NCBI RefSeq assembly: GCF_003387355.1
Contig: NZ_QUNH01000001.1
Location: forward strand, 1,126,023-1,190,022
Reading direction: 5' to 3'
Source of the DNA: Winogradskyella sediminis
GTDB lineage: Bacteria > Bacteroidota > Bacteroidia > Flavobacteriales > Flavobacteriaceae
Length of the DNA: 64,000 nucleotides
Shown piece by piece: positions 8,324-30,262 of this stretch (positions are counted from its first letter, which is position 1; each line of letters opens with the position of its first letter). The position numbers were made by a program, and so were the translations under genes. Under the pieces are notes generated by a model, which was not told the DNA's origin, searched no databases, and saw only the letters and a program-made list of their open reading frames with translations.

Positions 8324-8409
8324 CGTCGATACTAAAATGTAAATAAGCGATATTACCTACCAATTAAACGAAAATTAGGCTTTAAAACACATACACTATT
8401 GTAATTTTG
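8324..8409 (+). promoter_or_regulatory. Phased-box promoter of the H-NOX/LytTR operon
   Basis: Three 9-bp boxes start exactly 21 bp apart: CGTCGATAC (8324), AAGCGATAT (8345) and AAACGAAAA (8366). The last starts 36 bp before a flavobacterial -7 element TAATTTTG (8402-8409); the operon's first ATG is at 8438. The first box lies within ACCGTTCGTC (8318-8327), identical to the AlgR consensus of Pseudomonas, a LytTR regulator. No -33 TTG is present at the usual distance, which fits activator dependence. Binding by the operon's own LytTR protein (autoregulation) is inferred. Confidence 0.7.
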
Positions 8410-8437
8410 ATTCTTAAATTTAAAATAAACTTTAGGG

Positions 8438-8848
8438 ATGAGAAATCTTAATATACTACTTATAGAGGATGATATGATTGAGGTTATGAAATTTAATAGA
8501 GCAATTAATTCTCTAGGGTTAACACACGAAATCACTGAAGCAAATAATGGAGAGGAGGCTTTAGAGTTACTTAAGAAAAAAGATCAATTACCAGATATTA
8601 TTCTTCTAGATTTAAATATGCCAAAAATAAATGGCATTGAGTTTCTTAAAATTTTAAAAGCCGATGAACGATTAAGATATATACCAACAATTATCCTAAC
8701 AACCTCTAGTAATCAGAAAGATTTACTAGAATGTTTTGAAGTTGGAATTGCTGGCTATGTGTTAAAACCATTAAAATACGAGGATTATATTTCTAAAATC
8801 GAAAAAATATTAAGATATTGGAGTGTAAATGAATTGATAACTGTATAA
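8438..8848 (+). CDS. Single-domain response regulator (Rcp1/CheY type)
   Basis: 136 residues, one receiver domain and no output domain. Acidic pocket E10-D11-D12, phosphoacceptor D58 in ILLDLNMP, switch residue T89 in ILTTSSNQ, and Lys110 in VLKPL are all present, so phosphorylation should work. The long alpha4 region with 'SSNQKDLLECFEVGIAGYVLKP' is typical of Rcp1-like receivers that pair with PAS/phytochrome-type kinases. First gene of a seven-gene operon; its stop overlaps the H-NOX start by one base (TAATG). It could compete with the terminal LytTR receiver for phosphate or act as an intermediate. Confidence 0.9.
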   Translation: MRNLNILLIEDDMIEVMKFNRAINSLGLTHEITEANNGEEALELLKKKDQLPDIILLDLNMPKINGIEFLKILKADERLRYIPTIILTTSSNQKDLLECFEVGIAGYVLKPLKYEDYISKIEKILRYWSVNELITV

Positions 8849-9387
8849 TGAAAGGTATAATATTTACTGAGTTTTTAGATTTAGTTGAAGAGAAATTTGG
8901 GTTAGGAATGGTTGATAAAATTATTAATCAATCTAACCTAGAATCTGAAGGAGCATACACCTCAGTAGGAACGTACGAGTTTTCAGAAATGTTACAACTC
9001 ATAACGCATCTCAGTGAAAACACTGATATTTCTATAGATGATTTACTCATGGTGTACTCAGAACATCTGTTTAAAGCATTGGTAAAGGCACATCCAAATT
9101 TAGTAGAGCATTACAAGGATCCTATGAAACTTTTAGCTTCAATTGAAAATCATATTCATGTCGAAGTTCAAAAAATCTATCCAGATGCTCAATTACCTAC
9201 TTTTGAGCTTGAAGAGCAAACCGACCAACACATGGTTCTGGTTTATAAATCAGACAAAGGACTTTACGTATTAGGTAAAGGTTTAATGTTAGAAACTTTT
9301 AAACTTTTTAAGGTTCCTGTTGAAATTAATTATGAAAAACTCAATGCAGAAGGAACTGAGGTTCGGTTTTTTATAACAAAGAAATAA
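8848..9387 (+). CDS. H-NOX (HNOB) haem nitric-oxide-binding sensor
   Basis: 179 residues, the standard length of a stand-alone bacterial H-NOX. It begins with the family signature MKGIIFTEFLDLVEEKFG. The proximal haem ligand should be His104 in NHIHVEVQKIYPDAQLP, with the conserved Pro117 that distorts the haem. The propionate-binding YxSxR motif appears as Y133-K-S135-D-K137: Arg is replaced by Lys. Stand-alone H-NOX proteins bind NO on ferrous haem and control an adjacent histidine kinase; here the next gene, overlapping by one base, encodes such a kinase. In several proteobacteria this pairing controls biofilm formation. Cytoplasmic. Confidence 0.9.
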   Translation: MKGIIFTEFLDLVEEKFGLGMVDKIINQSNLESEGAYTSVGTYEFSEMLQLITHLSENTDISIDDLLMVYSEHLFKALVKAHPNLVEHYKDPMKLLASIENHIHVEVQKIYPDAQLPTFELEEQTDQHMVLVYKSDKGLYVLGKGLMLETFKLFKVPVEINYEKLNAEGTEVRFFITKK

Positions 9388-11369
9388 TGAGCTCAAACGA
9401 TAGTGAATTAGAAGTCTATAAAAGAGCTCTTGCTCGAGAAAAATTAGCTCGAAAAGCAGCTGAGAAAATTCTTGAAGACAAATCTACAGAACTCTACAAT
9501 ACGGCTCAAGAACTAAAACGCTCTAATCACAAATTACAAAAAATTCTTACAGAACGCACACTAGAGTTGCAAGGTGTATTCGAAAACATTATCGATGCCT
9601 ACATTGTTATGGATTTGTGGGGTAATGTTATTAAAATGAATGAGGCTGCAGCCAATTTGTTGGGCTTTGATTCTTACGAAGATTTTAATTTATTGAGCGT
9701 TGCAGACGTGTCTGAAGTAGAAAACGTTATGAATGCTTTCGATGTGTTACTGGTGCAAGGATCGGTAACTGATTTTAGAGTTAAACTCAACACCAAAAGT
9801 GGTGCTCAAATCCTTACACAGGTTAATGCTAGTATTATTTTAAATGAAAACGGAGAGCCCATAGCAGCTCAAGGTATTTTAAGAGACGTTACCCTAGAAA
9901 AACAAGCTAAAGACAAATTAAAACAATCCGAAAACCGACTGTTAACACTAATAAGCAACCTAGAAACAGGAATTTTATTAGAAGATGAAAACAGACGGAT
10001 TATACTCGTAAATCAGAAGTTCTGTGATATGTTTAGGTTAGCGCTAAATCCAAAGGAATTGGTCGGTAAAGATAGTGCACAGATATTTGAACAATCTAAA
10101 ACGATTTTTAGAGCTCCTAAAGGGTTTATTACCAGAGTTAATGTACTTCTAAAATCTAAAAAAGTGGTTATAGGAGATGAACTCAACACTACAAAAGGAG
10201 ATATACTCGAAAGAGATTTTATACCCATCATCAGTGATAATGAATACAAAGGAAATCTATGGAGTTATAGAGATGTCACCTTAAAGCGACATTATAGACA
10301 AAGCATAGAAATAGAAAAAGAAAAGTATAGAAGTATCATTGCAAATATGCATCTTGGGTTGGTTGAAATTGATGAGGAAGGTAGAGTTTTAATGGCCAAT
10401 CAAAGTTATCTTAATATGTCTGGCTATACTGAAGATGAGATTATAGGAGAAGTTGGGAAAGATATCTTATTAGCAAAAGCTGATAGAGATATGGTAGAAT
10501 CCCAAATGGAAAAAAGAAAAAAAGGTGTTACCAACGCCTACGAAGTAAAAATTAGAAATAAAAAAGGAGAATTAAGACATTGGTTATTAAGTGGGGCACC
10601 TAATTATAATGTTAATGGAAAAATCTCTGGGTCCATTGGTATTATATATGATATTACCGAATTAAAAGAACTGCAAATACAAAAAGAAAGTCTACTCTTA
10701 GAGTTAGAAAAAAGTAATAACGAATTACAAGAGTATGCACACATTGTTTCACACGATTTAAAATCTCCGCTAAGAAGTATTGATGCGCTTTTGCAATGGA
10801 TTAAAGAAGATAATAAAGATAGTTTAGATGAATTAAGTCTACAAAACATCAGCCTAATAGAAGTAACTTTAGAAAAGATGGAACAACTAATTTCAGACAT
10901 TCTAGAATACTCAAGTATTGGTTCAAGTCAGGCACAAAAGAAACCTGTGGATTTAAATGATCTTGTTGAAGGATTAGTGAAAATATTATATGTTCCTAAT
11001 CATATTGAGATTAAAATAAGCCATCCCTTACCAACGATATCAGGAGACAAAACCAAATTGCAACAGTTATTTCAAAACTTAATCAGCAATGCTGTAAAAT
11101 TTATTGATAAGCCAGAAGGAAGGATTGAAATTGCAGTAAAAGATTTATCAGATTATTATGAGTTCTCTATACAAGATAACGGTATGGGAATAGAAAAACG
11201 CTTTCACGATAAAATTTTTAAAATTTTTCATGCACTCAATAAAAGTAAAGATTCAACAGGAGTAGGGTTATCTATTGTTAAAAAAATTGTTGAACTACAT
11301 AGTGGTAAGATTTGGTTAGAAAGTACACCGAATGTTGGCACTACATTTTATTTCACCTTAAAAAAATAA
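9387..11369 (+). CDS. Triple-PAS histidine kinase, probable H-NOX partner
   Basis: 660 residues, no membrane segment. An N-terminal coiled coil (about 5-50) of the kind seen in H-NOX-associated kinases is followed by three PAS domains (about 52-175, 182-300, 306-430), a second short coil, a HisKA domain with phospho-acceptor His456 in HIVSHDLKSPLRS, and an HATPase_c domain with N box NLISNAVKF, G1 box DNGMGIE and G2 box STGVGLSIVKKIV. The start codon overlaps the H-NOX stop (TAATG) and the stop lies 2 bp before the FIST gene. Autophosphorylation controlled by H-NOX is the expected role by analogy with H-NOX/HnoK pairs. Confidence 0.9.
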   Translation: MSSNDSELEVYKRALAREKLARKAAEKILEDKSTELYNTAQELKRSNHKLQKILTERTLELQGVFENIIDAYIVMDLWGNVIKMNEAAANLLGFDSYEDFNLLSVADVSEVENVMNAFDVLLVQGSVTDFRVKLNTKSGAQILTQVNASIILNENGEPIAAQGILRDVTLEKQAKDKLKQSENRLLTLISNLETGILLEDENRRIILVNQKFCDMFRLALNPKELVGKDSAQIFEQSKTIFRAPKGFITRVNVLLKSKKVVIGDELNTTKGDILERDFIPIISDNEYKGNLWSYRDVTLKRHYRQSIEIEKEKYRSIIANMHLGLVEIDEEGRVLMANQSYLNMSGYTEDEIIGEVGKDILLAKADRDMVESQMEKRKKGVTNAYEVKIRNKKGELRHWLLSGAPNYNVNGKISGSIGIIYDITELKELQIQKESLLLELEKSNNELQEYAHIVSHDLKSPLRSIDALLQWIKEDNKDSLDELSLQNISLIEVTLEKMEQLISDILEYSSIGSSQAQKKPVDLNDLVEGLVKILYVPNHIEIKISHPLPTISGDKTKLQQLFQNLISNAVKFIDKPEGRIEIAVKDLSDYYEFSIQDNGMGIEKRFHDKIFKIFHALNKSKDSTGVGLSIVKKIVELHSGKIWLESTPNVGTTFYFTLKK

Positions 11370-11371: not shown

Positions 11372-12505
11372 ATGAAAATAGTTCAATTAGTTAAGTACAG
11401 GCAAAAGGACTGGGAATATCTTACTGATAAGCATGTGCTTAAAAAGCCATTGGTGATAGTTTTTGGAAACCGTCATCTTTTAGAGTGTCCTACAATCTAT
11501 GAAGACATTAAAGTGTTGTTTCCTGATGGTGATATTGTGTTTGGTTCTGCCTGTGCAGAAATTTCATCGGTTACGGTTAACGAAGGCAGTATTACAATTA
11601 CAGCAATAGAGTTTGAGCGAACTCATTTTATAATTAAAACGAGTAATATTTTAAATAAAGATTTAGATAGTTACAAAACCGGAGGCGCTTTAGTTAAACA
11701 GTTTCCTAAAGAAGGTTTAAAATATGTATTTGTAGTTTCTGAAGGTAGTTTTGTTAACGGTAGTCAATTAACAAAAGGGATGCGAGATGCTATTGAAAAG
11801 AACATCTTAATAACAGGTGGACTTTGTGGTGATGATGAGCGTTTTGAGAAAACTATTGCTGGATATAATGAAAATCCTAAACAAGGAGAAATAGTCGCTA
11901 TTGGTTTTTATGGAGACTCACTAGAGATTTCATTTTCTATTCATGGAGGTTGGACACCTTTTGGACCAGAACGTACGGTGACTAAATCTGAAGGTAATGT
12001 TCTTTATGAATTAGATGGTAAACCAGCACTAGACTTATATAAAACATACTTAGGTGATAAGGCTAAAGATTTGCCAAGCGCAGCACTTTTGTATCCACTA
12101 AATGTCACTTTATTATCCGAAAAACAATCTATAGTAAGGTCAATTCTTAGTGTAGATGAAGACCAGAATGCAGTTGTTTTAGCAGGCGATATAGCAGAAG
12201 GAGCCAAAGTACAATTAATGATGACCAACGTAGATCAAATTGCAAATGCGTCTGAGCGAGCAGCAAGGCAGGCTCTTGAGCTAAGATCATCTACACCAGA
12301 ATTGGCGATGTTGGTAAGTTGTATTGGTAGAAAATTGGTGTTAGACCAACGTGTAGAAGAAGAAATAGAAGAAGTTATTGAAGTCCTAGGGCCAAAGACC
12401 GCCATTTCAGGATTTTATTCTTACGGAGAAATTGCACCTTTTCATGGAGAAATGGCTTGTCAATTGCACAACCAAACCATGACCATAACTTTAATAAGTG
12501 AATAA
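11372..12505 (+). CDS. FIST-domain sensor, NosP-like
   Basis: 377 residues from ATG 11372; an in-frame GTG at 11312 would overlap the kinase gene and is not used. Both FIST halves are visible: an N-terminal domain with 'DGDIVFGSACAEISS', 'SEGSFVNGSQLTKGM' and 'ITGGLCGDDERF', and a C-terminal domain from about residue 190 (GGWTPFGPERTVT, 'LDGKPALDLYKTYLG') ending in FYSYGEIAPF. FIST proteins coded beside histidine kinases include NosP, a haem-based NO sensor; others bind small metabolites. I cannot confirm a haem ligand from sequence alone. The next kinase gene starts at the base immediately after its stop. Confidence 0.85.
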   Translation: MKIVQLVKYRQKDWEYLTDKHVLKKPLVIVFGNRHLLECPTIYEDIKVLFPDGDIVFGSACAEISSVTVNEGSITITAIEFERTHFIIKTSNILNKDLDSYKTGGALVKQFPKEGLKYVFVVSEGSFVNGSQLTKGMRDAIEKNILITGGLCGDDERFEKTIAGYNENPKQGEIVAIGFYGDSLEISFSIHGGWTPFGPERTVTKSEGNVLYELDGKPALDLYKTYLGDKAKDLPSAALLYPLNVTLLSEKQSIVRSILSVDEDQNAVVLAGDIAEGAKVQLMMTNVDQIANASERAARQALELRSSTPELAMLVSCIGRKLVLDQRVEEEIEEVIEVLGPKTAISGFYSYGEIAPFHGEMACQLHNQTMTITLISE

Positions 12506-13570
12506 ATGAATTCGCTATTAAAAAGACAGGTACGTAAATATTTAAGTGAAGAACTTAGAGAAAATAAAGATTTAGATGAATTTCTAAGTGCTATTGATCG
12601 ATCGTACAATAATTATGATGAGCATTCTGCAATGATTCAAAGAGCCATGGCTATTAGCTCAGAAGAATTATTTGCAGCAAACAAACAATTGCGTTTAGAG
12701 GCTCAAGAACAGAAAGAGCTCATTGTAAAATTGAAAAGTCTTATAAACAAACTTGGAGTCTTGGATAGTAATCTAAACCAAAATACTACTAACACCGATA
12801 TAAGTGGGTTAAAGTTAGTAGATTTTATTGAGGGTCAGGCCAAAGAGATTATAGAAATGAGCAAAGAGAAAGAATCATTGCTTAGTGCCTTATCCCAACA
12901 AAATCAAGAATTGAGCGATTATGCGCATATGGTCTCGCACGATTTAAAATCACCATTACGCAATATCGATACACTGACCTCTTGGCTATTAAAAGATCAC
13001 ATAGATAATTTAGACAAGCATGGAGCTAACCAATTGCAATTGATTAGAACCAATGTTCAAAAAATGGATACTTTAATCAGTGGAATTTTAAGTTATTCAA
13101 CCGTATGTAAGGGAGATAAGAATTTTTATGATGTAGATTTAAATGTCTTAATAAAAAATACTATTGCTTCTATAAATGTTCCAAAGGATTTTAAAATAAA
13201 AGTAAATCCGCTACCTATTGTTAGTGGAGACAGGAGCCGATTAATTCAACTGTTTCAAAATTTATTAGAAAATGCCATTAAGTACAACGATAAAGAAATA
13301 GGCCAAGTAGAAATAGGAGGAAAAGATATTGGGGAATATTGGCAATTTTATGTCAAAGATAATGGTAAAGGTATTGACCAAATATATTTTGATCGGATTT
13401 TTAAAACTTTTGTAAAGTTAGAAAACACTGCAGAATCTTCAGGAATTGGTTTGTCTATCGTTAAGAAAATTATTGAATTTTATAGTGGTAAAATTTGGTT
13501 AACATCAGAAATAAAAAAAGGAACAACTTTCTTTTTTACAATACAAAAAAATCATGAGAGAACAGCCTAA
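12506..13570 (+). CDS. Histidine kinase without PAS domain, probable FIST partner
   Basis: 354 residues, soluble. The first 80 residues (LLKRQVRKYL, 'FLSAIDRSYNNYDEHSAMI', 'AISSEELFAANKQLR') form the charged coil found in kinases paired with FIST/NosP proteins. A second coil leads to HisKA with His145 in HMVSHDLKSPLRN, and HATPase_c with NLLENAIKY, DNGKGID and SSGIGLSIVKKI. The HisKA and ATPase parts closely resemble those of the first kinase in the operon, suggesting duplication and a shared downstream target. Its 3' end overlaps the Hpt gene by 17 bases. Input presumably comes from the FIST protein. Confidence 0.88.
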   Translation: MNSLLKRQVRKYLSEELRENKDLDEFLSAIDRSYNNYDEHSAMIQRAMAISSEELFAANKQLRLEAQEQKELIVKLKSLINKLGVLDSNLNQNTTNTDISGLKLVDFIEGQAKEIIEMSKEKESLLSALSQQNQELSDYAHMVSHDLKSPLRNIDTLTSWLLKDHIDNLDKHGANQLQLIRTNVQKMDTLISGILSYSTVCKGDKNFYDVDLNVLIKNTIASINVPKDFKIKVNPLPIVSGDRSRLIQLFQNLLENAIKYNDKEIGQVEIGGKDIGEYWQFYVKDNGKGIDQIYFDRIFKTFVKLENTAESSGIGLSIVKKIIEFYSGKIWLTSEIKKGTTFFFTIQKNHERTA

Positions 13571-13874
13571 TCTATCGTACATTAATCAAATGTCTGGAGG
13601 AGATAAAGACTTTGAAGAAAAGTTAATGGGAATTATAAAAATTGAATATCCGAAAGAAAAACAAACCTACTTACATAACATTGAAGCAAAAAAATATAAA
13701 GACTCCGCAGATAATGTTCATAAACTTAAACATAAAATTAGTATTTTAGGACTTGAAAAGAGTTACGGAATTGCAGTTACTTATGAAGAAAACCTATTAA
13801 ATGGTAAAGAAGACGGACGGAAAGATTTTGAAGCAATTCTAGATACAATCACAGATTATTTAGAGACCTTTTAA
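13554..13874 (+). CDS. Hpt phosphotransfer protein
   Basis: 106 residues, a single all-helical histidine phosphotransfer domain. The phospho-acceptor is His56 in NVHKLKHKISILG, matching the HxLKG(S/A) motif of Hpt domains with Lys59 and His60 following; a second helix pair closes the bundle. Overlaps the kinase gene by 17 bases and lies 9 bases before the LytTR regulator. A free Hpt lets the two kinases pass phosphate through a receiver (the first gene, or one at 15172) to the LytTR receiver, or drain it back. Start is the only ATG available in frame. Confidence 0.87.
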   Translation: MREQPNLSYINQMSGGDKDFEEKLMGIIKIEYPKEKQTYLHNIEAKKYKDSADNVHKLKHKISILGLEKSYGIAVTYEENLLNGKEDGRKDFEAILDTITDYLETF

Positions 13875-13883: not shown

Positions 13884-14597
13884 ATGAATTGTATAATTAT
13901 CGATGACGAGGCAACAGCAAGAGCGATCATTAGTCAGTTGTGTACTAATGAATCTTCTTTAAATGTGCTAGAGGAATTTCCTAATGCAATTCAAGCTATA
14001 AAATACCTCAATCAACATGAGGTAGATCTTATCTTTTTAGATATTCATATGCCAGATTTTACCGGTTTCGATTTTATTGAAACCATAAAAAATCCTCCTA
14101 AAATAATACTAACAACCTCCGATCCAAATTTCGCAATTCAAGCTTTTGAGTACGATTGCATTGTAGACTACCTCGTTAAACCTATTATTCCTGAGCGCTT
14201 TTTAAAAGCTATTATTAAAGCACAGGCTATTCCAAATAAAGTTAAAGACGACATTGGGGCTTCAGATGAGGTAGAGACAAGTTCTGGGAATGATCTGTAT
14301 ATAAACATTGATAGAAGGTTGATTAAAATAGATATACCTACTATTTATTTAATAGAAGCTAAGGGAGATTATATTCAAATAAAAACAGAAACGAAGAACT
14401 ACACGGTACATTCTACCATGAAAAAAATTGAAGATAAATTACCAGATAGTATTTTCTTAAAGATTCATCGTTCTTATATTATTAACGTCGAAAAGATTAT
14501 TGACATCGAAGACAATAGTGTGCTAATTAAAAAAGATGTCATTCCTGTTAGTAGATCTAACAGACCAAAATTAATGAAACGACTAAATTTGTTGTAA
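13884..14597 (+). CDS. LytTR-family response regulator
   Basis: 237 residues. Receiver domain 1-115 with D7-D8-E9, phosphoacceptor D53 in FLDIHMPDF, T77 and K99; a short linker; then a LytTR DNA-binding domain (about 137-235) with 'IPTIYLIEAKGDYIQIKT', 'FLKIHRSYIIN', and 'IPVSRSNRPKLMKRL'. LytTR proteins (AlgR, AgrA, ComE) bind pairs of direct repeats about two helical turns apart. The 21-bp-phased boxes before this operon and before six transcription units downstream are therefore plausible targets. Last gene of the operon; a terminator and a candidate small RNA follow. Confidence 0.93.
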   Translation: MNCIIIDDEATARAIISQLCTNESSLNVLEEFPNAIQAIKYLNQHEVDLIFLDIHMPDFTGFDFIETIKNPPKIILTTSDPNFAIQAFEYDCIVDYLVKPIIPERFLKAIIKAQAIPNKVKDDIGASDEVETSSGNDLYINIDRRLIKIDIPTIYLIEAKGDYIQIKTETKNYTVHSTMKKIEDKLPDSIFLKIHRSYIINVEKIIDIEDNSVLIKKDVIPVSRSNRPKLMKRLNLL

Positions 14598-14604
14598 AAC
14601 CATT

Positions 14605-14689
14605 CGTCGATACATTACTTACACTCAAAGTGTTCTGCTTAGACCTTATCTAAATATTACAAACGCTATTAACATTTCCACTAATTTTG
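14605..14689 (+). promoter_or_regulatory. Phased-box promoter of candidate sRNA
   Basis: Boxes at 21-bp spacing: CGTCGATAC (14605), a weak CAAAGTGTT (14626) and TATCTAAAT (14647), then the -7 element TAATTTTG (14682-14689), 35 bp after the start of the last box. The first box sits in ACCATTCGTC, one mismatch from the AlgR site. It begins 8 bases after the LytTR stop codon and points to a gap with no sizeable ORF before a strong terminator. Confidence 0.62.
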
Positions 14690-14693: not shown

Positions 14694-14766
14694 AGAAATC
14701 AAGTGGTTATGATTTTTAAGGTTTGGTAGTTAAGAAAAAAGGACAAAGTTATTTTGTCCTTTTTAT
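14694..14766 (+). ncRNA. Candidate LytTR-controlled small RNA
   Basis: Defined by a promoter and a terminator: the -7 element at 14682-14689 should start transcription near 14694-14696, and the hairpin at 14735-14764 with its T-run should stop it near 14766. The transcript would be about 70 nt. It contains only a 6-codon reading frame (ATG at 14709), so it is more likely an RNA regulator than a gene for a protein, though a leader peptide cannot be excluded. No known RNA family is recognised. If the upstream operon reads through, it would share this terminator. Confidence 0.45.
14735..14766 (+). terminator. Rho-independent terminator
   Basis: GGACAAA (14741-14747) pairs with TTTGTCC (14753-14759) around a 5-base loop; flanking A and T runs extend the stem and provide the U tail. 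It ends the signalling operon and the candidate sRNA. Confidence 0.85.
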
Positions 14767-14832: not shown

Positions 14833-14854
14833 CCCTAGCTAATAGCTAATTTGG

Positions 14855-14890
14855 AAAAGGCAGAAACATTCGTTTTTGCCTTTTTGTTTT
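14855..14890 (+). terminator. Second rho-independent terminator
   Basis: AAAAGGCA (14855-14862) pairs with TGCCTTTT (14877-14884), with AAA/TTT pairing further in and a T-rich tail to 14890. It lies 90 bases after the first terminator and 80 before the next promoter, insulating the exopolysaccharide locus. Confidence 0.75.
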
Positions 14891-14965
14891 TAAATACACT
14901 CATTGTAAGCTATTTCTGTGTTTTCTTAATAATAGGTAAATGCTTCAAAACATCTAAAAACAAGA

Positions 14966-15051
14966 CACCAATTATTTTAAGTCATTGGTCTACACTAAAT
15001 GTTAGTCTATCGAAATTTAAGCTAAAAACACATAACGCACGGCTAAGTTTG
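14966..15051 (+). promoter_or_regulatory. Phased-box promoter of the REC/phosphoglycosyl transferase unit
   Basis: Boxes GGTCTACAC (14987) and TATCGAAAT (15008) are 21 bp apart, with a weaker one in phase at 14966 (CACCAATTA). The -7 element TAAGTTTG occupies 15044-15051, exactly 36 bp after the start of the last box. No TTG lies at the -33 position. The first ATG downstream is at 15172. Confidence 0.7.
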
Positions 15052-15171: not shown

Positions 15172-15558
15172 ATGAAGAAAAAAATACTAGCTATAGATGA
15201 TGAGCTAACAATGACAACCTTGTTAGAATTCTTTTTAGGTAACAATTACGATGTAGTTACTGTCAATTCTGGTAAAGAAGCTTTAAAATGGTTAGATGGT
15301 AATTTACCAGACTTAATTATTAGCGATATTCAAATGAGTGATCTCGATGGTTTTGAGTTTTTAAAACAGTTTAGGTTAAGAGGCTATACAAAGCATACAC
15401 CTGTAATAATGCTGTCGGGTAGAGCAGAAAGTAAAGAACGTGTAAAATGCTATAAACTCGGTGCACAAGATTATCTTACAAAACCATTTAATCCTGAAGA
15501 ATTAGATGAAGTAGTGAAAAAAAACTTGTACCCAATACATTATGCTAACGCCTGGTAG
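15172..15558 (+). CDS. CheY-like single-domain response regulator
   Basis: 128 residues, one receiver: D9-D10 in AIDDE, phosphoacceptor D52 in IISDIQMSD, S82 in MLSGRAES and K104 in LTKPFNPEE. No output domain. It lies 37 bases before the phosphoglycosyl transferase gene whose N-terminus is itself a receiver-like domain, in the same predicted transcript. It may receive phosphate from the upstream relay and act on exopolysaccharide assembly by protein contact, but that is inference. Confidence 0.9.
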   Translation: MKKKILAIDDELTMTTLLEFFLGNNYDVVTVNSGKEALKWLDGNLPDLIISDIQMSDLDGFEFLKQFRLRGYTKHTPVIMLSGRAESKERVKCYKLGAQDYLTKPFNPEELDEVVKKNLYPIHYANAW

Positions 15559-15595
15559 AAGTAAAGCTTTTACGTAGATATAATTCCCAGAAAAC

Positions 15596-16844: not shown

Positions 16845-16875
16845 AGGAACAATCTTTAACGGAATAACATAGCTT

Positions 16876-16961: not shown

Positions 16962-17003
16962 TACGAGTAATATAAGTATAATCGAGACCATTTGTCCCAA
17001 GCT

Positions 17004-17738: not shown

Positions 17739-17756
17739 GCCTTAAGACGTATCATA

Positions 17757-20075: not shown

Positions 20076-20078
20076 AAC

Positions 20079-21635: not shown

Positions 21636-21675
21636 TAGTGATAAACAGACTATTATAAAGTCTGATCTATTGACA

Positions 21676-23151: not shown

Positions 23152-23154
23152 GTC

Positions 23155-24120
23155 ATGAATTTTAGAAGTATCAGCGATTTAAACGAAACTATTTTACGAC
23201 AACTTCACGTTATACCGAGACATTTTGATTTGGTTGTCGGTGTCCCAAGAAGTGGTATGATGCCAGCAAACCTTTTGTCCCTTTACCTCAATTTACCTTA
23301 TACAGATATTCACTCATTTATTAAAGGTTTTGTGTATAAAGCCGGAGCGCGAAAACAATTTTTTGATGCTTCAGAATATAAAAATATTTTGGTGGTAGAT
23401 GATAGTATTGCATCGGGTTCGGCATTAGCAGAATGTAAGGAGAGCTTAGCACATTTAAATCAAAAATTTAATTTTAGTTACTGTGTTGTTTATGCAACTC
23501 CAGAAAAAGCTAAGGCTGTAGATTTTGCATTAGAAAATGTAGCAACACCTCGCTATTTTCAATGGAATATCTTTAACCATTCTACATTAGATAAGGCTTG
23601 TTTTGATATTGACGGTGTGCTTTGTGTTGATCCTTCTAAAGAACAAAACGATGATGGTCCTAATTATAAATCGTTTTTACTTAATGCAGCACCATTATAT
23701 ATTCCAGGAAGTAAAATAGGCACTTTAGTGACTTCTAGGTTAGAAAAATATCGCGAAGAAACTGAAATCTGGTTAAAAAAACATGGCATTAAATACGACA
23801 AATTGGTGATGTTAGACTTGCCAGATATGAAAGCGAGACAAAAGGCTAATTGTCATGGTAGCCATAAAGCTAAAGAGTATAAAAATAGTACTTACAACTT
23901 ATTTATTGAAAGCGATTTAAGACAAGCCATAGAGATCAATAAGCTGACTAAAAAACCTGTGTTCTGTACAGAAAACTTTAAAATGATTTATGACTCAGAA
24001 TCTCTAACTTATAACATTAAAAGTGGAAAGTATTTACCATTTTTAAGAGAAACCGCACTTCAACTTAGAACAAAGCTTGGTAAGTTAAAACGTAAAGAGC
24101 TAAAGTTTAAGTCTCATTAA
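23155..24120 (+). CDS. PRPP-type phosphoribosyltransferase fused to a HAD-like domain
   Basis: 321 residues. Residues 1-130 are a type I phosphoribosyltransferase: GVPRSG loop (29-34) and the 13-residue PRPP motif VVDDSIASGSAL (80-91). From about 147 a HAD-like domain begins with CFDIDGVLC (D151, D153), continuing with a Thr-Ser motif LVTSR and a late Lys; a 'FIESDLRQA' motif near the end matches the last acidic HAD motif. PRPP-dependent transfer followed by dephosphorylation is the logic used to build ribofuranose into some capsules, so a role in making a ribose donor or decoration is possible. Lies 3 bases after the polymerase gene. Confidence 0.8.
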   Translation: MNFRSISDLNETILRQLHVIPRHFDLVVGVPRSGMMPANLLSLYLNLPYTDIHSFIKGFVYKAGARKQFFDASEYKNILVVDDSIASGSALAECKESLAHLNQKFNFSYCVVYATPEKAKAVDFALENVATPRYFQWNIFNHSTLDKACFDIDGVLCVDPSKEQNDDGPNYKSFLLNAAPLYIPGSKIGTLVTSRLEKYREETEIWLKKHGIKYDKLVMLDLPDMKARQKANCHGSHKAKEYKNSTYNLFIESDLRQAIEINKLTKKPVFCTENFKMIYDSESLTYNIKSGKYLPFLRETALQLRTKLGKLKRKELKFKSH

Positions 24121-24148
24121 TTATTCAATTTTTTTAAACCTTGTATCC

Positions 24149-25360
24149 ATGGAAACTGTGAATCAAATAATAAGATATATTATCAATAGTTTTGAAGTTA
24201 TTATACTCATTTACTTTGCTGTATCTAGTGTATACGTCTTACTTTTTGCTTTAGCTGGTCATGGCTACAAAAGACGAAAGGTTTTTACTAATCAAAATAT
24301 AAATAGCATGGCTGTTTTTATTCCAGCCTATAAGGAAGATGCTGTGATTGTAAGTGTAGCAAAAACAGCATTAGAACAACATTATCCATCTGCTAATTTT
24401 GATGTGATAGTGATCGCAGACTCATTACAAGCAGAAACGCTTACTAATCTTAAAAAACTTCCTATTAAATTAGTAGAGGTAGATTTTGAAAATAGTACAA
24501 AGGCTAAAGCGTTAAATGCAGCAATTAATAGCTTATCTGAGAATTATGATTATGCCATCATTCTCGATGCAGATAATATAATGGAAGCCGAGTTTCTAAA
24601 TAAAATGAATAATGCCTTTAATCATGGCTTTCAGGTAGTTCAGGCTCATAGAAAGGCGAAAAATTTAAATACATCTTTTGCTATTTTAGATGCTGCAAGC
24701 GAAGAAATTAACAACCATATTTTTAGAAAAGGTCATAGTGCTTTAGGATTGTCTTCGGGTTTAATTGGTTCTGGTATGGGCTTTGAGTACCGTTTGTTTC
24801 AATCAATTATGAAAACTGTAACAGCTGTTGGTGGTTTTGATAAAGAATTGGAATTTGAATTAGCAAAAAATAACATTACAATCGAATATCTTCAGGATAC
24901 CGTAGTTTTAGATGAAAAAATTCAGCGATCGTCAGACTTTTCTAATCAAAGAAGACGTTGGTTAGCGACACAATTTATCTATTTTAAACGCAATTATAAA
25001 TTAGGGTTTAAAGCACTTCTCAATGGAAATATGAATTTCTTTGATAAAGTGTTTCAGATGATGGTACCACCTAGAATTCTATTATTAGGTGTAACCACAA
25101 TCATTACGCTCATTTACATATTAATCGATTTCGGATTTAAAGTAAATACCTTCATATCTAGCTATTACTGGATAATTACTTACGCATTATTAATCGCTAC
25201 GTTTGTTTTAGCCTTGCCTAAATCATTTTACAATGCAAACACCTTAAAAGCTATGGCTTCAATGCCTTCTGCGTTCTTTAGGATGTTCCGTTTGCTTTTT
25301 AATTTAAAAGGTGCAAATTCAAAATTTATTCATACATCACACGGTGTCACAAAAAACTAG
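24149..25360 (+). CDS. Membrane GT2 glycosyltransferase
   Basis: 403 residues. One N-terminal membrane helix (about 15-38), a GT-A domain with VFIPAYKED, VIVIADS, the metal-binding DADN in IILDADNIME, and the acceptor motif QRRRW (like processive synthases), then three C-terminal helices (about 310-375). It is the second enzyme of the unit after the PRTase-HAD protein. Processive or single-addition action cannot be decided; the Q(R/Q)xRW motif alone is shared by both kinds. Confidence 0.87.
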   Translation: METVNQIIRYIINSFEVIILIYFAVSSVYVLLFALAGHGYKRRKVFTNQNINSMAVFIPAYKEDAVIVSVAKTALEQHYPSANFDVIVIADSLQAETLTNLKKLPIKLVEVDFENSTKAKALNAAINSLSENYDYAIILDADNIMEAEFLNKMNNAFNHGFQVVQAHRKAKNLNTSFAILDAASEEINNHIFRKGHSALGLSSGLIGSGMGFEYRLFQSIMKTVTAVGGFDKELEFELAKNNITIEYLQDTVVLDEKIQRSSDFSNQRRRWLATQFIYFKRNYKLGFKALLNGNMNFFDKVFQMMVPPRILLLGVTTIITLIYILIDFGFKVNTFISSYYWIITYALLIATFVLALPKSFYNANTLKAMASMPSAFFRMFRLLFNLKGANSKFIHTSHGVTKN

Positions 25361-25363
25361 AGG

Positions 25364-26527
25364 ATGAAAATTGGTATTGAAGCCCAGCGATTATATCGTC
25401 CGCATAAGCACGGAATGGATAGAGTAGCGTTAGAGTTGATTAAGAATTTGCAAGTCTTAGACAAAGAAAACGATTACGTTATTTTTGTGAAACCTGATAC
25501 TGATAACACGGTAATTTCGGAAACTGAGAATTTTAAAATTGTTGAAGTAGAGGCCGCATCTTATCCTATTTGGGAACAGTTAAAACTTCCAAAAATGGTA
25601 AAAGCGCATCAATGCGATGTGCTTCATTGTACCAGTAATACCGCACCTTTATTTATAGATGTGCCATTGGTTACAACACTTCACGATATTATTTTTAAAG
25701 AAACAAGTGTTTTTTCGCAACTGATTAGTAGCGCTTCTTGGTATCAAAAATTCGGAAATTTTTACAGAAGATTAATCGTTAATAAAGTTGTAAAGCAAAG
25801 CGACGTGCTCATCACAGTTTCTAATTTTGAAAAAGAAAATATTAGCAATAGGTATCAGCTTCAAACATCAAAAATAAATACGGTTCATAACGGTGTAAAT
25901 ACAAATTTTGTATCCAGTTTTAACAGGTTTGAAATTGAACGGGTCAAACAAAACTATCAATTACCTCAAAATTTTTTATTACACCTTGCCAATACCGATC
26001 CTAGAAAGAATACAGCACGAGTGCTAAGGGCATTTTATAAATATATTGGCACTACTACAGATGATGTTAAACTTGTTTTGGTCGGACTGAATGAAGCTAC
26101 TTTAAACACTCTATTAAAACAAATTGGTTTAGGTAAAGTACTTAAAGATAAAATAGTCCTTACAGGATATGTGTTAGATGAAGATTTACCCATTATATTT
26201 CATTTAGCTGAGGTTTTCTTGTTCCCTTCGTTGCGCGAAGGTTTCGGCATCCCTATTATTGAAGCTATGGCTTGTGGTGTTCCGGTAATTACTTCAAACA
26301 CTTCGTCTATGCCAGAGGTGGCGGGCGATGCGGCATACTTAGTAAATCCTAAAAATGAAACAGAAATTTTTGAAGCTATTCTAAAAATACGTGTAGTCAC
26401 AACCTTAAAAAAAGAGCTTATTAAAAAAGGACTTAAGCAGTACCAATTATTTACATGGGAAAATGCGGCAAAAAAAGTTTTAGAAATTTATAAGCAATTC
26501 GATAAAAAAAATAGTCAGTCGTTATGA
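25364..26527 (+). CDS. GT4 glycosyltransferase
   Basis: 387 residues, no membrane helix. GT-B fold with N-terminal MKIGIEAQRLYRP and HGMDRVALEL, a central linker, and a GT4 C-terminal domain carrying TDPRKNTARVLRAF, 'FLFPSLREGFGIPIIEAMACGVPVI' (the EX7E donor-binding motif: E-GFGIPIIE) and 'SSMPEVAGDAA'. This is a retaining transferase of the mannosyl/glucosyl kind. Its stop overlaps the next transferase gene by four bases (ATGA). Confidence 0.92.
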   Translation: MKIGIEAQRLYRPHKHGMDRVALELIKNLQVLDKENDYVIFVKPDTDNTVISETENFKIVEVEAASYPIWEQLKLPKMVKAHQCDVLHCTSNTAPLFIDVPLVTTLHDIIFKETSVFSQLISSASWYQKFGNFYRRLIVNKVVKQSDVLITVSNFEKENISNRYQLQTSKINTVHNGVNTNFVSSFNRFEIERVKQNYQLPQNFLLHLANTDPRKNTARVLRAFYKYIGTTTDDVKLVLVGLNEATLNTLLKQIGLGKVLKDKIVLTGYVLDEDLPIIFHLAEVFLFPSLREGFGIPIIEAMACGVPVITSNTSSMPEVAGDAAYLVNPKNETEIFEAILKIRVVTTLKKELIKKGLKQYQLFTWENAAKKVLEIYKQFDKKNSQSL

Positions 26528-27726
26528 TACAAGATAGAGACATAATAGTCATTGGTATACAACCTTGGGATATTAAAATTGGCAGTAATTGTAAGAACAT
26601 TGCTGCAGAGTTTGCTAAGCATAATCGTGTATTGTACGTTAATCCACCATTAGACAGAATTACCAAATACAAGCAAAAACAGGAAGAACATATTCAGAAA
26701 CGATTAAAAATTGCGAAAGGTGAAGCACCTGATTTACAAAAAATAGAGCACAACTTATGGAATCTGTATCCAAAAACATTAATAGAATCAATCAATTGGA
26801 TTAATAACGCATCTGTCTTTGATTTTTTTAATAAACGTAATACAAAACTGTTTGCGCAAGATATAAAAGCGGCTGCAACCCGTTTAGGCTTTAACAATGT
26901 TTTGTTGTTTAATGATAGTTCCATGTTCTTAGGGCTTTATTTAAAAAACTATTTAAATCCTGATGTCTACACATATTATGTTAGAGATAATTTAATAAAA
27001 GTTCCGTATTGGAAAAAACATGGAGAACGCATAGAACCTCAGGTCATTGCTCAGGCAGATGTTGTGGTTAATAATTCTGAATACTATGTAGATTATACTT
27101 CAAAATATAATGCCCATAGTTTTATGGTAGGTCAGGGTTGCGATGTCACTATGTTTAACGATGAAGATGGGGTTATAAAAATACCACAAGAGTTTGCAGC
27201 CATCAAGGGACCAGTTATTGGCTATGTTGGGTCGCTAACAACCTTGCGTTTAGATATTGAATTAATTACGTTTATAGCTCAACAACGACCAGATTGGAAT
27301 ATCGTTTTAGTAGGGCCTGAAGATGACAATTTTAAGGCTTCTAGTTTACATCAGTTATCTAATGTTTATTTTTTTGGGAACAAGCCGGCAGACCAATTAG
27401 CGTCATATATAAAAGGTTTTGATATTGCTATAAATCCTCAGGTTGTTAATGAAATTACTATAGGTAATTACCCCAGAAAAATAGATGAATATTTAGCCAT
27501 GGGTAAACCTGTAGTTGCCACAACCACTAAGGCTATGCAAATGTTTAAAGATTACACCTATTTAGGTGAAACAAAGGAAGATTATGTGCAATTAATAGAA
27601 AAAGCACTATCTGAACATTCAGATATTAAAGCAAAACAACAAATTGATTTTGCAAATACGCATACTTGGAGCAATAGTGTTAACGCTATTTATAACGCTA
27701 TGCAATCCTCATTAAAAAATAATTAG
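26524..27726 (+). CDS. GT-B glycosyltransferase
   Basis: 400 residues, soluble. N-terminal half starts with IIVIGIQPWDIKIGSNCK and has the pattern of group 1 transferases that act on exopolysaccharides; C-terminal half has 'GPVIGYVGSLTTLRLD', 'IVLVGPEDDN', 'QLASYIKGFDIAINP' and the donor-site 'PRKIDEYLAMGKPVVAT'. Start overlaps the GT4 stop. Donor and acceptor are unknown. Position in the operon suggests it adds the sugar after the GT4 enzyme. Confidence 0.88.
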   Translation: MIQDRDIIVIGIQPWDIKIGSNCKNIAAEFAKHNRVLYVNPPLDRITKYKQKQEEHIQKRLKIAKGEAPDLQKIEHNLWNLYPKTLIESINWINNASVFDFFNKRNTKLFAQDIKAAATRLGFNNVLLFNDSSMFLGLYLKNYLNPDVYTYYVRDNLIKVPYWKKHGERIEPQVIAQADVVVNNSEYYVDYTSKYNAHSFMVGQGCDVTMFNDEDGVIKIPQEFAAIKGPVIGYVGSLTTLRLDIELITFIAQQRPDWNIVLVGPEDDNFKASSLHQLSNVYFFGNKPADQLASYIKGFDIAINPQVVNEITIGNYPRKIDEYLAMGKPVVATTTKAMQMFKDYTYLGETKEDYVQLIEKALSEHSDIKAKQQIDFANTHTWSNSVNAIYNAMQSSLKNN

Positions 27727-27728
27727 TT

Positions 27729-28346
27729 ATGTCTTTTGTAACAGCAATAAAATCAAATCCGACTTTAAAACGACTTGCGCATTGGTCCATACTTATACCT
27801 AATCAAGCAAGACCACGTTTATGGATAAAATGGTTTGTAAACCCTTTTGTTCATCATAGAGGAAAAAATTCTTGTATTAGAAGACGAACAAGACTCGATG
27901 TAGTGCCTTGGAGTAAATTTAGTTTAGGAGACGCATCAACTATAGAAGATTTTTCTGCGTTAAATAACGGAGTAGGAGATGTTATAATAGGGAATAGAAC
28001 TCGTATCGGATTAAGTAATACTATTATTGGTCCGGTAACCATTGGTGACGATGTAAGGTTGGCACAAAATGTGGTGTTATCGGGTTTAAATCATAACTAT
28101 GAAGGTATTGAGAGTCCAATTCACGAGCAAGGTGTTTCTACAAAACCTATAGTTATAGAATCGGAATCTTGGATTGGAGCCAATGTTGTTATCGTTCCAG
28201 GTGTTACCATTGGTAAACATTCTATTGTCGCAGCTGGTAGTGTGGTGACTAAAAGTATGCCACCATATTCTGTTATAGTTGGTAATCCGGCAAAAGTTTT
28301 AAAACAGTATAATCCTGAAACTCAACTTTGGGAGAAAACAATTTAA
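27729..28346 (+). CDS. Hexapeptide-repeat acyltransferase
   Basis: 205 residues. The C-terminal two thirds are left-handed beta-helix hexapeptide repeats (IIGNRTRIGLSNTIIG, 'VTIGDDVRLAQNVVLSG', 'SWIGANVVIVPGVTIGKHSIVAAGSVVT') ending with the typical YSVIVGNPAKVLK. His in GLNHNYEG is at the place of the usual catalytic His of xenobiotic-acetyltransferase-type enzymes. It should O-acetylate (or acylate) a sugar of the repeat unit in the cytoplasm. Last gene of the Wzy unit, 2 bases after the preceding transferase. Confidence 0.9.
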   Translation: MSFVTAIKSNPTLKRLAHWSILIPNQARPRLWIKWFVNPFVHHRGKNSCIRRRTRLDVVPWSKFSLGDASTIEDFSALNNGVGDVIIGNRTRIGLSNTIIGPVTIGDDVRLAQNVVLSGLNHNYEGIESPIHEQGVSTKPIVIESESWIGANVVIVPGVTIGKHSIVAAGSVVTKSMPPYSVIVGNPAKVLKQYNPETQLWEKTI

Positions 28347-28375
28347 AGCCGTTTGCGTAAAGATAGGAAACAGTC

Positions 28376-28460
28376 TATCGATACTAATCGGCGATTTGTC
28401 TATACAGAAAGTCATCATAAAGAAAATTAATAAAATTCATCTAGTGACGGTCTAATTTTA
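28376..28460 (+). promoter_or_regulatory. Phased-box promoter of the last glycosyltransferase unit
   Basis: TATCGATAC (28376), TGTCTATAC (28397) and TAAAGAAAA (28418) are each 21 bp apart; the -7 element TAATTTTA (28453-28460, final A for G) begins 35 bp after the last box. It sits 30 bases after the acyltransferase stop and 17 before the next ATG (28477). Confidence 0.66.
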
Positions 28461-28476: not shown

Positions 28477-29667
28477 ATGGAAACTTTAAAAGTATTGTTC
28501 TGGATTTTATTAATCATCATTATATACACGTATGTTGGCTATGGCGTTGTGCTGTATGCGTTGGTGAAAATTAAACGACTTTTTAAAAGAAAGACCGAGG
28601 ATACTTTCAGTGCTGATGAATGGCCAGAAGTCACCCTTTTAATTCCAGCATACAACGAGAGTGATTATGTGAGCCAGAAGATGAAGAACACCATGCAGTT
28701 GAATTATCCCTCAGACAAATTGAAAATTGTATGGGTTACAGACGGATCTAATGACGGTACGGACGCTCGCTTAAAACAATATGATAATGTAGAGCTCTAT
28801 CATAAAGACGAAAGAAAAGGTAAAATAAATGCTATGAACCGCGTAATGCCTTTTGTAAAAACGCCTATAGTCATTTTTAGTGACGCAAATACAGATCTCG
28901 GCAAAGATTCAATTATTCATATTGTTAATTGTTTTAAAGATGCCAAAGTAGGTTGTGTATCTGGTGAAAAAAGAATTGTGGATAAGACTAGTGATGCTGC
29001 AGCTGGAGCCGGAGAGGGTTTATATTGGAAATATGAATCCATGTTAAAAAAATGGGATGCAGAGTTGTATTCAGCTGTTGGTGCAGCTGGCGAATTATTT
29101 GCAATTAGAACTGAGTTGTATCAAGAAGTTGAACAAGATACGTTGTTAGATGATTTTATAATCTCTTTAAGAGTTGCTCAACAAGGTTATACCATACAAT
29201 ATAATCCTGAAGCCTATGCTATAGAAACAGCTTCTGCAAATGTAAAAGAAGAATTAAAACGAAAAGTTAGAATTTCAGCAGGTGGTATACAGTCTGTAAT
29301 AAGACTACATGCTTTACTTAATATTTTTAAATATGGTGTTTTATCATTTCAGTATATATCGCATCGTGTTTTGCGTTGGACGGTAACTCCGCTTAGTTTA
29401 TTATTGTTACTTCCGATATCTGCGATTTTAGCAGCAAACGTTGGTTTTAGTAGTCTTCATTTTTATAGTCTATTTTTCTGGGCACAATTACTGATGTATG
29501 TCTGTGCTTTATTAGGTTGGTTGTTAGAAAATAATGCTACAAGTGTTAAAATACTATTTGTACCTTACTATTTCTTTATCATGAATTTATCCGTAGTCCT
29601 CGGTTTTTTTAGGTTTATAAATAATAATCAATCGGTAAACTGGGAACGTGCAAAAAGAGCACACTAA
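28477..29667 (+). CDS. Membrane GT2 glycosyltransferase
   Basis: 396 residues. N-terminal membrane helix (about 5-27), GT-A domain with VTLLIPAYNES, IVWVTDGSNDGTD, the metal site SDAN in VIFSDANTDLG, 'VGAAGELFAIRTELY' and 'LLDDFIISLRVAQQG', with KRKVRISAGG in place of the common QRxRW acceptor motif; three C-terminal helices (about 300-385). It belongs to the same broad class as the enzyme at 24149 but differs in its motifs. It has its own phased-box promoter. Confidence 0.88.
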   Translation: METLKVLFWILLIIIIYTYVGYGVVLYALVKIKRLFKRKTEDTFSADEWPEVTLLIPAYNESDYVSQKMKNTMQLNYPSDKLKIVWVTDGSNDGTDARLKQYDNVELYHKDERKGKINAMNRVMPFVKTPIVIFSDANTDLGKDSIIHIVNCFKDAKVGCVSGEKRIVDKTSDAAAGAGEGLYWKYESMLKKWDAELYSAVGAAGELFAIRTELYQEVEQDTLLDDFIISLRVAQQGYTIQYNPEAYAIETASANVKEELKRKVRISAGGIQSVIRLHALLNIFKYGVLSFQYISHRVLRWTVTPLSLLLLLPISAILAANVGFSSLHFYSLFFWAQLLMYVCALLGWLLENNATSVKILFVPYYFFIMNLSVVLGFFRFINNNQSVNWERAKRAH

Positions 29668-29699
29668 TAGTGCATTTTAATAAAGAAAATTCAGCAAAT

Positions 29700-30161
29700 A
29701 TGCACGTAGGCCTCATCATTGTATTTAATCATTTTAAGGATTCACAGCTTAAGTCAGATTTTATTACTTCACTCAAAGCACTTCATAATATTAAGATTTG
29801 TTTGGTCTGTAATAGTAATGATGATATAGTGTTGGAGCAGCTTAACGAGATCGCTTATCACGGAGATCATATAGCTGTTGTAAGTACCAAACGAACCAAA
29901 TCAACTTCTTCCGCAGTAAAAGCTGGAGCCAGATATGTATATAACCATTATAACCTTAAATATGTGGGTTATATCGCTGATTTTTCAAGTTTAGAGAGTT
30001 TTGAATTTGTAAAAAAATTTGAGAGTCATCAGCAAACTATAATCACTTTAATTAAAGAAGAAATCGCTGCGAAAAAAGTTAAACAAACTTATTACCAAAG
30101 TTTGTTTTCAATACCTAAACACCTAGATAAGGTGTTAGCAATGTCTCAAAAGATAAGTTAA
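29700..30161 (+). CDS. Short GT-A-like protein, function unknown
   Basis: 153 residues from ATG 29700; a GTG at 29670 would add ten residues. The sequence follows the first half of a GT2 fold: HVGLIIVFNHFKDS strand, 'NIKICLVCNSNDDIVLEQL', an Ala-Gly helix 'SSAVKAGARYVYNHYNLKYVGYI' and then ADFSS where the metal-binding DxD would be. The acceptor half is absent. It may be a reduced transferase or an accessory subunit of the GT2 encoded just upstream (33 bases). No clear family assignment. Confidence 0.6.
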   Translation: MHVGLIIVFNHFKDSQLKSDFITSLKALHNIKICLVCNSNDDIVLEQLNEIAYHGDHIAVVSTKRTKSTSSAVKAGARYVYNHYNLKYVGYIADFSSLESFEFVKKFESHQQTIITLIKEEIAAKKVKQTYYQSLFSIPKHLDKVLAMSQKIS

Positions 30162-30177
30162 AATACATTCTGCAATT

Positions 30178-30262
30178 CGTCGATAGTAAATAGCTTTCTA
30201 GCCCTTGTGCTATACGACATATAGAAAATATAAATCTCGCGTCTAATTACGAGGTAATTTTA
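30178..30262 (+). promoter_or_regulatory. Phased-box promoter of the LruC lipoprotein gene
   Basis: CGTCGATAG (30178) and TATAGAAAA (30220) are 42 bp (two periods) apart, with a poor match between them at 30199. The -7 element TAATTTTA (30255-30262) starts 35 bp after the last box, as at 28453. The -7 element ends only 5 bases before the predicted ATG at 30268, so translation more likely starts at the in-frame ATG 30286, or the mRNA is nearly leaderless. Confidence 0.58.

Follow-up and report, generated by a model that had tools for sequence, protein, structure and literature searches.

Seven promoters at a signalling and exopolysaccharide locus

Marine flavobacteria are major makers and degraders of polysaccharide, and to our knowledge few transcription-factor sites are known from them. 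We analysed a 64,000-nucleotide stretch of the Winogradskyella sediminis genome (the window; C1:1126023-1190022 of the 3.80-Mb genome) in which seven sites, each with three boxes in 21-bp phase ahead of a -7 promoter element, are spread along an exopolysaccharide locus. The same locus encodes a response regulator that joins a receiver (REC) to a LytTR DNA-binding domain. Comparison with relatives identifies the sites as a family-wide conserved regulon promoter that is tied to this one REC-LytTR protein, most often together with a gas sensor.

All genes annotated from 8438 to 32274 (window coordinates) lie on the + strand; two small minus-strand open reading frames (ORFs) in this region were set aside as spurious. 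The order is signalling operon, REC2, receiver-sugar transferase, OEP/Wzz-like/Wzx, Wzy with glycosyltransferases, and LruC-domain protein. The signalling operon contains an H-NOX/FIST phosphorelay that is absent from an earlier note on this DNA. It opens with a single-domain receiver, REC1 (8438-8848; PF00072, E 9e-24), and an H-NOX (HNOB) haem gas sensor (8848-9387; PF07700, E 2e-36), followed by a histidine kinase with three PAS stretches (9387-11369; PAS, HisKA, HATPase_c) and a NosP-like FIST N+C protein (11372-12505; PF08495/PF10442), for which we chose the start at 11372 over the mechanical start at 11312. A second histidine kinase with no recognised sensor domain (12506-13570; HisKA and HATPase_c), an HPt-like phosphotransfer protein (13554-13874; PF01627 at E 0.012, below the cut-off) and the REC-LytTR response regulator, our proposed binder (13884-14597; PF00072 and PF04397), complete the operon.

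Domain scans of the next interval (15172-16777) identify REC2 (15172-15558) and a receiver-sugar transferase fusion (15596-16777). The receiver-like part of the fusion scores 31.5 bits for Response_reg (cut-off 30.2) and by eye has Glu at the phosphorylated-Asp position (ICEY); it is perhaps a pseudo-receiver. Export genes occupy 16992-21449 (OEP at 16992, a Wzz-like protein below the Pfam cut-off at 17757, a Wzx-type flippase at 20079). A Wzy-type polymerase, a phosphoribosyltransferase-like protein, a GT2, two GT4 and a hexapeptide acyltransferase fill 21670-28346, and a further GT2 (28477) and a 163-amino-acid protein of no clear family (29670) fill 28477-30161. The LruC/DUF4842 protein found by domain scans at 30268-32274 is, judged by eye, probably a surface lipoprotein.

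The seven box triples and -7 elements listed in the earlier note were all found, on the + strand. Promoter 1 (8315-8409; boxes at 8324/8345/8366, -7 at 8402) precedes REC1, the first gene of the signalling operon, and promoter 2 (14596-14689; boxes at 14605/14626/14647, -7 at 14682) is followed by none that belongs to it. REC2 and the REC-sugar transferase are preceded by promoter 3 (14957-15051; boxes at 14966/14987/15008, -7 at 15044), OEP/Wzz/Wzx by promoter 4 (16867-16961; boxes at 16876/16897/16918, -7 at 16954), Wzy by promoter 5 (21541-21635; boxes at 21550/21571/21592, -7 at 21628) and the GT2 at 28477 by promoter 6 (28367-28460; boxes at 28376/28397/28418, -7 at 28453). The weak promoter 7 (30169-30262; boxes at 30178/30199/30220, -7 at 30255) precedes the LruC/DUF4842 gene. 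From promoter 1 to promoter 7, box 3 lies 36, 35, 36, 36, 36, 35 and 35 bp from the -7 element, which at two of the sites reads TTTA, not TTTG. Within the gene cluster, each of the six gaps of at least 106 bp between genes contains a site, with two in the gap of 574 bp; the other 15 junctions, of at most 37 bp, contain none.

Each site, named here by the start of its box 1, was scored by leave-one-out with a matrix from the other six against both window strands (127,705 positions). Five sites scored 35.6 (8324), 29.9 (14966), 30.5 (16876), 34.3 (21550) and 29.1 (28376), where the best unrelated position reached 11.0-12.8. The remaining two, 14605 at 11.9 and 30178 at 12.5, were equalled by one other position and by none, respectively; when only the boxes were used, 48 and 16 of the 127,705 positions scored as well. 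A matrix built from sites in 80 other loci, sites that had themselves been chosen with the window's matrix, gave six of the seven 32.8-52.5 (8324, 45.7; 14605, 32.8; 14966, 46.9; 16876, 36.3; 21550, 52.5; 28376, 36.3) and 30178 only 12.4. With this matrix no unrelated window position exceeded 4.7, and 4 Mb of Markov-1 sequence gave 9.1 at most.

A genome-wide scan, which the earlier note had proposed, was run with a profile hidden Markov model (HMM) on the organism's own 3.8-Mb genome, scoring 150 of 7079 first-look candidates. Five strong sites ranked first (E 6e-13 to 3e-7: 8324, 1.6e-8; 14966, 9.9e-11; 16876, 2.1e-9; 21550, 6.4e-13; 28376, 3.3e-7), and all five lie inside the exopolysaccharide locus. 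The site alignment A1 held 70 sites out of the best-scoring 110 of 163. The window thus holds five strong sites, one (14605) that is backed by its position and the relatives' matrix, and one (30178) that is weak. The earlier picture of seven transcription units is refined in that the unit at 14682 lacks a gene and two of the seven sites are weak.

Two places were considered and set aside. A would-be site before the STAS gene at 33214 was rejected, its match at 33051 scoring just 1.0 with the relatives' matrix; STAS-type genes of relatives have the motif, unlike the window STAS gene (33051-33528, a very weak match). Among 23 loci inspected outside the locus in the own genome, one candidate was left, C2:54843-54926 (L096), the best place outside the locus, with a weak motif (E 0.014, matrix 11.3). 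It precedes a 476-amino-acid protein with a signal-peptide-like start and is a possible trans target.

Promoter 2 is followed by a hairpin at about 14736-14764 (fold z -4.45), which a consensus terminator scan did not list, giving only one at 14854-14885. In many relatives a site occupies the corresponding position, directly after the LytTR gene. Promoter 2 would be an orphaned promoter or the source of a short RNA ending in the hairpin. At this place many relatives have a long ORF, whose product is sorted by the type IX secretion system (T9SS) in the two scanned cases (L011, L089).

Promoter structure in relatives

We compared the promoter across 80 loci with an orthologous LytTR (74-87% identity), chosen by their LytTR gene. 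The seven-site matrix has at least one match above 20 on the LytTR strand in 80/80 loci, the maximum on the other strand being 15.6, and a refined matrix finds 318 sites (score at least 18), again across all 80. Where an ORF was found, the -7 element of these sites precedes the start codon by a median of 34 nt, and in most of the loci a site lies 20-80 bp upstream of REC1. In the consensus of 215 non-redundant sites, box 1 reads aaaaCCATTC(A/G)TC(G/T)ACAC, box 2 reads CCATTC(A/G)TC(T/G)ACACTAAA, and box 3 is a degenerate TCnAnCGAAA, followed by TAnnTTT(G/A). Boxes 1 and 2 are strong and 21-bp-phased; box 3 is a different, degenerate half-box. No fourth box was seen upstream, conservation from -66 to -10 relative to box 1 being at most 0.10 bits per position.

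The conserved core of the box is about 15 bp. The 9-bp boxes of the earlier note keep their 21-bp phasing but lose their register, since the conserved box begins about 5 bp further upstream. The AlgR-like match it reported falls inside the extended box, of which ACCGTTCGTC, the AlgR-type sequence, is one form. The LytTR family operator consensus is [TA][AC][CA]GTTN[AG][TG]; by eye, boxes 1 and 2, read as ACC(A/G)TTC(A/G)T, fit it at 8 or 9 of 9 positions, and box 3 does not fit.

Within the window, support for the phasing is slight: the self-similarity of the seven sites is 0.354 at a shift of 21 and 0.343 at a shift of 27. This, together with the two weak sites, is the case for a chance origin, in which AT-rich promoter sequences selected by eye happened to align. 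The 215 relatives' sites give 0.478 at shift 21 versus at most 0.308 at any other shift from 14 to 28. Box-only matrices trained on half the loci, from sites that had been selected with the -7 element included, and applied to the other half found 166 and 156 sites on the LytTR strand, and 0 and 2 on the opposite strand. Where an exact TAnnTTTG occurs within 90 nt of the start of box 3, it lies at 35/36 nt in 77/82 and 62/62 instances. Leave-one-out, cross-validated and whole-genome tests and the presence in 80/80 relatives refute chance for the five strong sites and leave it a negligible probability overall; that the sites represent a real, shared promoter is virtually certain.

The -33 TTG is an element of Bacteroidota sigma-A promoters. 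As the earlier note had claimed, it is missing here: no TTG lies 17-26 nt upstream of the -7 element in the seven window sites, and none lies 18-25 nt upstream in 103 relatives' motif promoters with an exact TAnnTTTG. The tRNA-Leu gene in the window, also as claimed, has an upstream TTG-N18-TATATTTG. With the Bacteroidota sigma-A -7 element TAnnTTTG placed at -12 to -5, as given in the accessible part of PMC9723704, the conserved box parts fall by arithmetic at about -98 to -78, -74 to -56 and -49 to -40. The missing -33 TTG and the position of box 3 upstream of it give the sites the anatomy of an activator-dependent promoter.

This anatomy bears on whether LytTR, on these same boxes, would instead repress. 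CoxC binds three LytTR repeats that overlap a -35 box and represses, according to the available text of PMC11347149, and a CoxC-like action here has that precedent. Against it, box 3 ends upstream of the would-be -33 element, the 0/103 count makes the promoters look unable to work alone, and most LytTR regulators are described in the same text as binding upstream of -35 and activating (PMC11347149). We regard repression as unlikely, and favour activation.

Co-occurrence with the REC-LytTR regulator and its cassette

Across 25 genomes of the same genus (own included), the motif is strong in 13 (E ≤ 1.2e-8) and reaches 1.1e-4 at best in the other 12. A LytTR match at E ≤ 1e-60 occurs in all the motif-strong genomes and in no other (13/13 vs 0/12; Fisher 1.9e-7, a value that shared ancestry inflates), and H-NOX has the same distribution. 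Of the 24 genomes other than the own, 12 have an orthologue; eleven of these orthologues are 81-88% identical and the twelfth 71%. In a survey of the family (199 genomes, 198 genera; motif at E ≤ 1e-5, LytTR at E ≤ 1e-60, with stricter filters than the own-genome search), the motif is present in 73/199: 71 genomes have both, 2 the motif only, 11 LytTR only and 115 neither (Fisher 2.6e-39, likewise inflated). Weak matches to the motif (E ≤ 0.01) turn up in ten of the 11 genomes with LytTR only; in nine of them such a match, in some cases partial, lies within 10 kb of LytTR. One genome of the survey carries a tandem pair of LytTR orthologues (G170:C1:1376298-1378238; 69% and 67% identity).

Sites far from the regulator gene are given here as examples among the matches listed. 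One lies 1.6 or 2.0 Mb from LytTR, depending on the direction taken round a 3.58-Mb contig, and precedes a gene for a 2359-amino-acid protein (G213); another lies about 0.93 Mb away on the same contig, before a 906-amino-acid protein with a signal-peptide-like start (G162). In G183, sites on a contig other than that of LytTR precede GT4-like and STAS-like genes (named by eye). In G192 a homologous polysaccharide cluster lies on a contig without LytTR, and there the counterpart of the gene behind the weak site 30178, an LruC/DUF4842 gene, is preceded by a strong site (43.4; L169). Sites more than 0.9 Mb from the LytTR gene indicate a factor that acts in trans, and distant sites argue against purely local duplication of one promoter. 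The genome-wide scan, the presence in 80/80 loci, the co-occurrence in 199 genomes and these trans sites all favour what the earlier note had suggested, a LytTR-type regulon across the whole exopolysaccharide locus that would depend on an activator.

Among the genes downstream of the relatives' sites, scanned clusters include T9SS-sorted DUF6923 proteins (two scanned) and, with one member scanned each, GT4, STAS and CAP proteins and a small protein without a family match. Other clusters match the window's REC1, OEP, Wzy and Wzz, or were read from their sequence, unscanned, as flippase and UDP-sugar dehydrogenase types. A cluster of 20 small proteins (median 118 amino acids), encoded immediately before REC1 and preceded by their own motif copy, includes L012:4002-4397, which has no Pfam or NCBIfam match.

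A different regulator, encoded elsewhere, could read the boxes, the H-NOX/LytTR cassette then being merely one of its targets. The own genome encodes 14 LytTR domains, and the two motif-positive genomes without a close orthologue (G088, G196) offer nothing nearer than paralogue-like proteins, 40% identical at most. Set against this, the 12 same-genus genomes that lack the orthologue show no strong motif, although the search yielded 18-41 first-look candidates per genome, which were other response regulators or LytTR proteins. G026 has the motif (E 2.7e-5) together with a LytTR (53% identity) whose gene is not flanked by H-NOX; G037 and G030 have H-NOX, no such LytTR and no strong motif. Another reader is therefore improbable, slightly more so than repression. 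The REC-LytTR protein of the locus is very probably the binder, because it is the only cassette protein with a recognised DNA-binding domain, its boxes are AlgR-like and the sites resemble known LytTR operators.

The cassette itself is widely kept. At a threshold of at least 45% identity, which omits weaker FIST, HPt and kinase homologues (a few more loci have a weaker FIST), the 80 loci contain H-NOX in 75, REC1 in 77, HPt in 78, the PAS kinase in 74 and FIST in 46; in L048, L077 and L081, where REC1 and H-NOX are missing, the locus is cut. The residues expected of a phosphorelay are invariant: D11, D58 and K110 in 77/77 REC1 orthologues, D53 and K99 in 80/80 REC-LytTR orthologues, and H56, inside VHK(L/I)KHKI, in 80/80 HPt-like orthologues. 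An H-NOX is marked by a conserved His and a YxSxR motif; in the orthologues H104 is found in 75/75, H102 in 74/75 and Y133/S135 in 75/75, and position 137 is R in 71/75 and K in the window protein (YKSDK). The closest solved structure to the window H-NOX is 6bdd (E 9e-70), named Ka (Kordia algicida) H-NOX in the accessible portion of PMC7356049.

Several points weigh against the reading that the locus's LytTR reads these boxes under the control of a gas-sensing phosphorelay. The Fisher values above overstate the evidence, since the genomes share ancestry, and among the 12 same-genus negatives G020 and G023 are less than 90% complete. In two of the 73 genomes with the motif, no LytTR match reaches E ≤ 1e-60: G196, which is 87% complete, and G088, where a decayed-looking cassette (C9, L172) keeps motif copies, a short H-NOX frame and a 140-amino-acid FIST frame, after which come no kinase 2, HPt or LytTR. 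The co-occurring genes form one cassette, so that co-occurrence alone does not single out LytTR from the kinases, REC1 and HPt. On the promoter side, the profile HMM cannot separate 30178 (E 0.22) and 14605 (E 0.42) from background; an exact TAnnTTTG stands at 35/36 nt in just 77/166 and 62/156 of the cross-validation test sites, the rest having variants or none; and a -33 control at 72 other promoters gave no clear TTG peak and is uninformative. On the relay side, the HPt-like protein scores 16.3 bits against a PF01627 cut-off of 24.6. The FIST protein scores 56 bits against the curated NosP cut-off (NF041558) of 450 and, with FIST domains present, is therefore called NosP-like only. H-NOX is missing from two uncut loci (L025, L079) and in G026 is not linked to LytTR, and gas sensing is therefore not part of every copy.

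The G026 locus (G026:C1:2210714, L182) belongs to another family and consists of a kinase, a REC1-like protein, a small ORF and LytTR with no H-NOX alongside, with weaker motifs elsewhere in the genome. This arrangement may mean that the relay predates the gas sensor.

Proposed mechanism and comparison with known systems

We propose that the REC-LytTR response regulator encoded in the locus itself (13884-14597) uses the boxes as its operator. Once phosphorylated, LytTR protomers would sit on boxes 1, 2 and 3, all on one face of the helix, and would bring RNA polymerase to a sigma-A promoter with a TAnnTTTG -7 element and no -33 TTG. LytTR would thereby switch on its own operon and the export, polymerase and glycosyltransferase operons of the exopolysaccharide and, in relatives, secreted-protein and STAS genes as well, some of them distant. 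With confidence only a shade lower than that for the binder, we expect the protein to activate these promoters, and binding and activation taken together, leaving the gas input aside, are likely. Phosphate would most likely pass from a kinase (9387 and/or 12506) to REC1, to the HPt-like protein and on to LytTR; the invariant receiver Asp/Lys and HPt His fit this order, which we consider fairly probable.

The H-NOX and FIST proteins would set kinase activity upon binding a diatomic gas, most likely nitric oxide (NO). As the main input NO is the favoured candidate, if by a modest degree. O2, CO or a quorum signal acting via the PAS kinase, with the wiring unchanged, is a less probable alternative that deserves weight: the first kinase carries three PAS stretches, FIST is found in just 46/80 loci, H-NOX is absent from the two uncut loci, and the window H-NOX has K where most orthologues have R. 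H-NOX and NosP are described, in the available parts of PMC6769237 and PMC8738867, as NO sensors that set kinases feeding an HPt step and the biofilm genes of vibrios, and by this analogy we retain NO. Our guess, by the same analogy, is that NO would lower polysaccharide transcription here.

We give even chances to a broader reading. The triple-box promoter would move with surface-polysaccharide and secreted-protein modules exchanged between genera, each carrying or gaining it, and one conserved phosphorelay, mostly with H-NOX and often with FIST, would control whatever surface a genome has from linked and distant sites. One motif readable in sequence ties the mostly H-NOX-bearing cassette to genes for surface polysaccharide and secreted proteins in more than a third of the sampled genera, and it predicts targets in other genomes. 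NO control of flavobacterial biofilm polysaccharide becomes directly testable, and a LytTR factor may substitute for the -33 element at a Bacteroidota promoter.

The sequence ACCGTTCGTC is, as the earlier note gives and we assume, the AlgR box of Pseudomonas. AlgR is a REC-LytTR protein that controls an exopolysaccharide, and it differs from the window system in phylum and promoter type. In open-access full texts on LytTR and H-NOX in Bacteroidetes and Flavobacteria, mostly judged from listings, we found no description of the present system.

LytTR operators are summarised, in the available text of PMC11347149, as 9-bp direct repeats spaced 10-13 bp apart. The 21-bp box period fits such spacing, and the core of about 15 bp exceeds 9. 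Three-repeat LytTR operators are already known from RcoM-1 and CoxC of aerobic CO oxidation. There, as in the system proposed here, LytTR domains read three direct repeats spaced by about two helical turns, and the control is linked to diatomic-gas sensing (PMC11347149). In CoxC, as that text has it, sensor and LytTR domain share one protein and the repeats are 8 bp (TTCNNGCA/TTNNNGCN) (PMC11347149). The window differs in its REC-LytTR response regulator, its longer box, its Bacteroidota -7 element and its five to seven promoters within one locus.

The LytTR regulatory systems (LRS) HdrRM and BrsRM and the Bacteroides LRS-like operons, as far as covered in the accessible part of PMC6193735, likewise have direct repeats just upstream of a promoter, and autoregulation. 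Their repeats are given as 9-11 bp with mostly 11-12 bp between, those of Bacteroides lying upstream of TATCTTTG, where regulation is presumed, and for the regulator's own operon (PMC6193735). These systems have two repeats and a membrane partner, in contrast to the three boxes of the present locus, its phosphorelay cassette and its polysaccharide regulon.

The nearest parallels for the input are the vibrio relays, as represented in the accessible portions of two reports: in Vibrio fischeri H-NOX/HahK acts through the HPt domain of SypF on syp (PMC8738867), in V. cholerae a NosP/VpsS relay leads to biofilm (PMC6769237), and in both the NO-bound sensor lowers kinase output (PMC8738867, PMC6769237). 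As proposed here, a haem NO sensor adjoins a kinase that feeds an HPt step, with biofilm polysaccharide genes at the far end (PMC8738867, PMC6769237). What sets the flavobacterial locus apart is its output: this would be a LytTR response regulator whose gene lies in the same operon and whose boxes stand at the polysaccharide promoters themselves.

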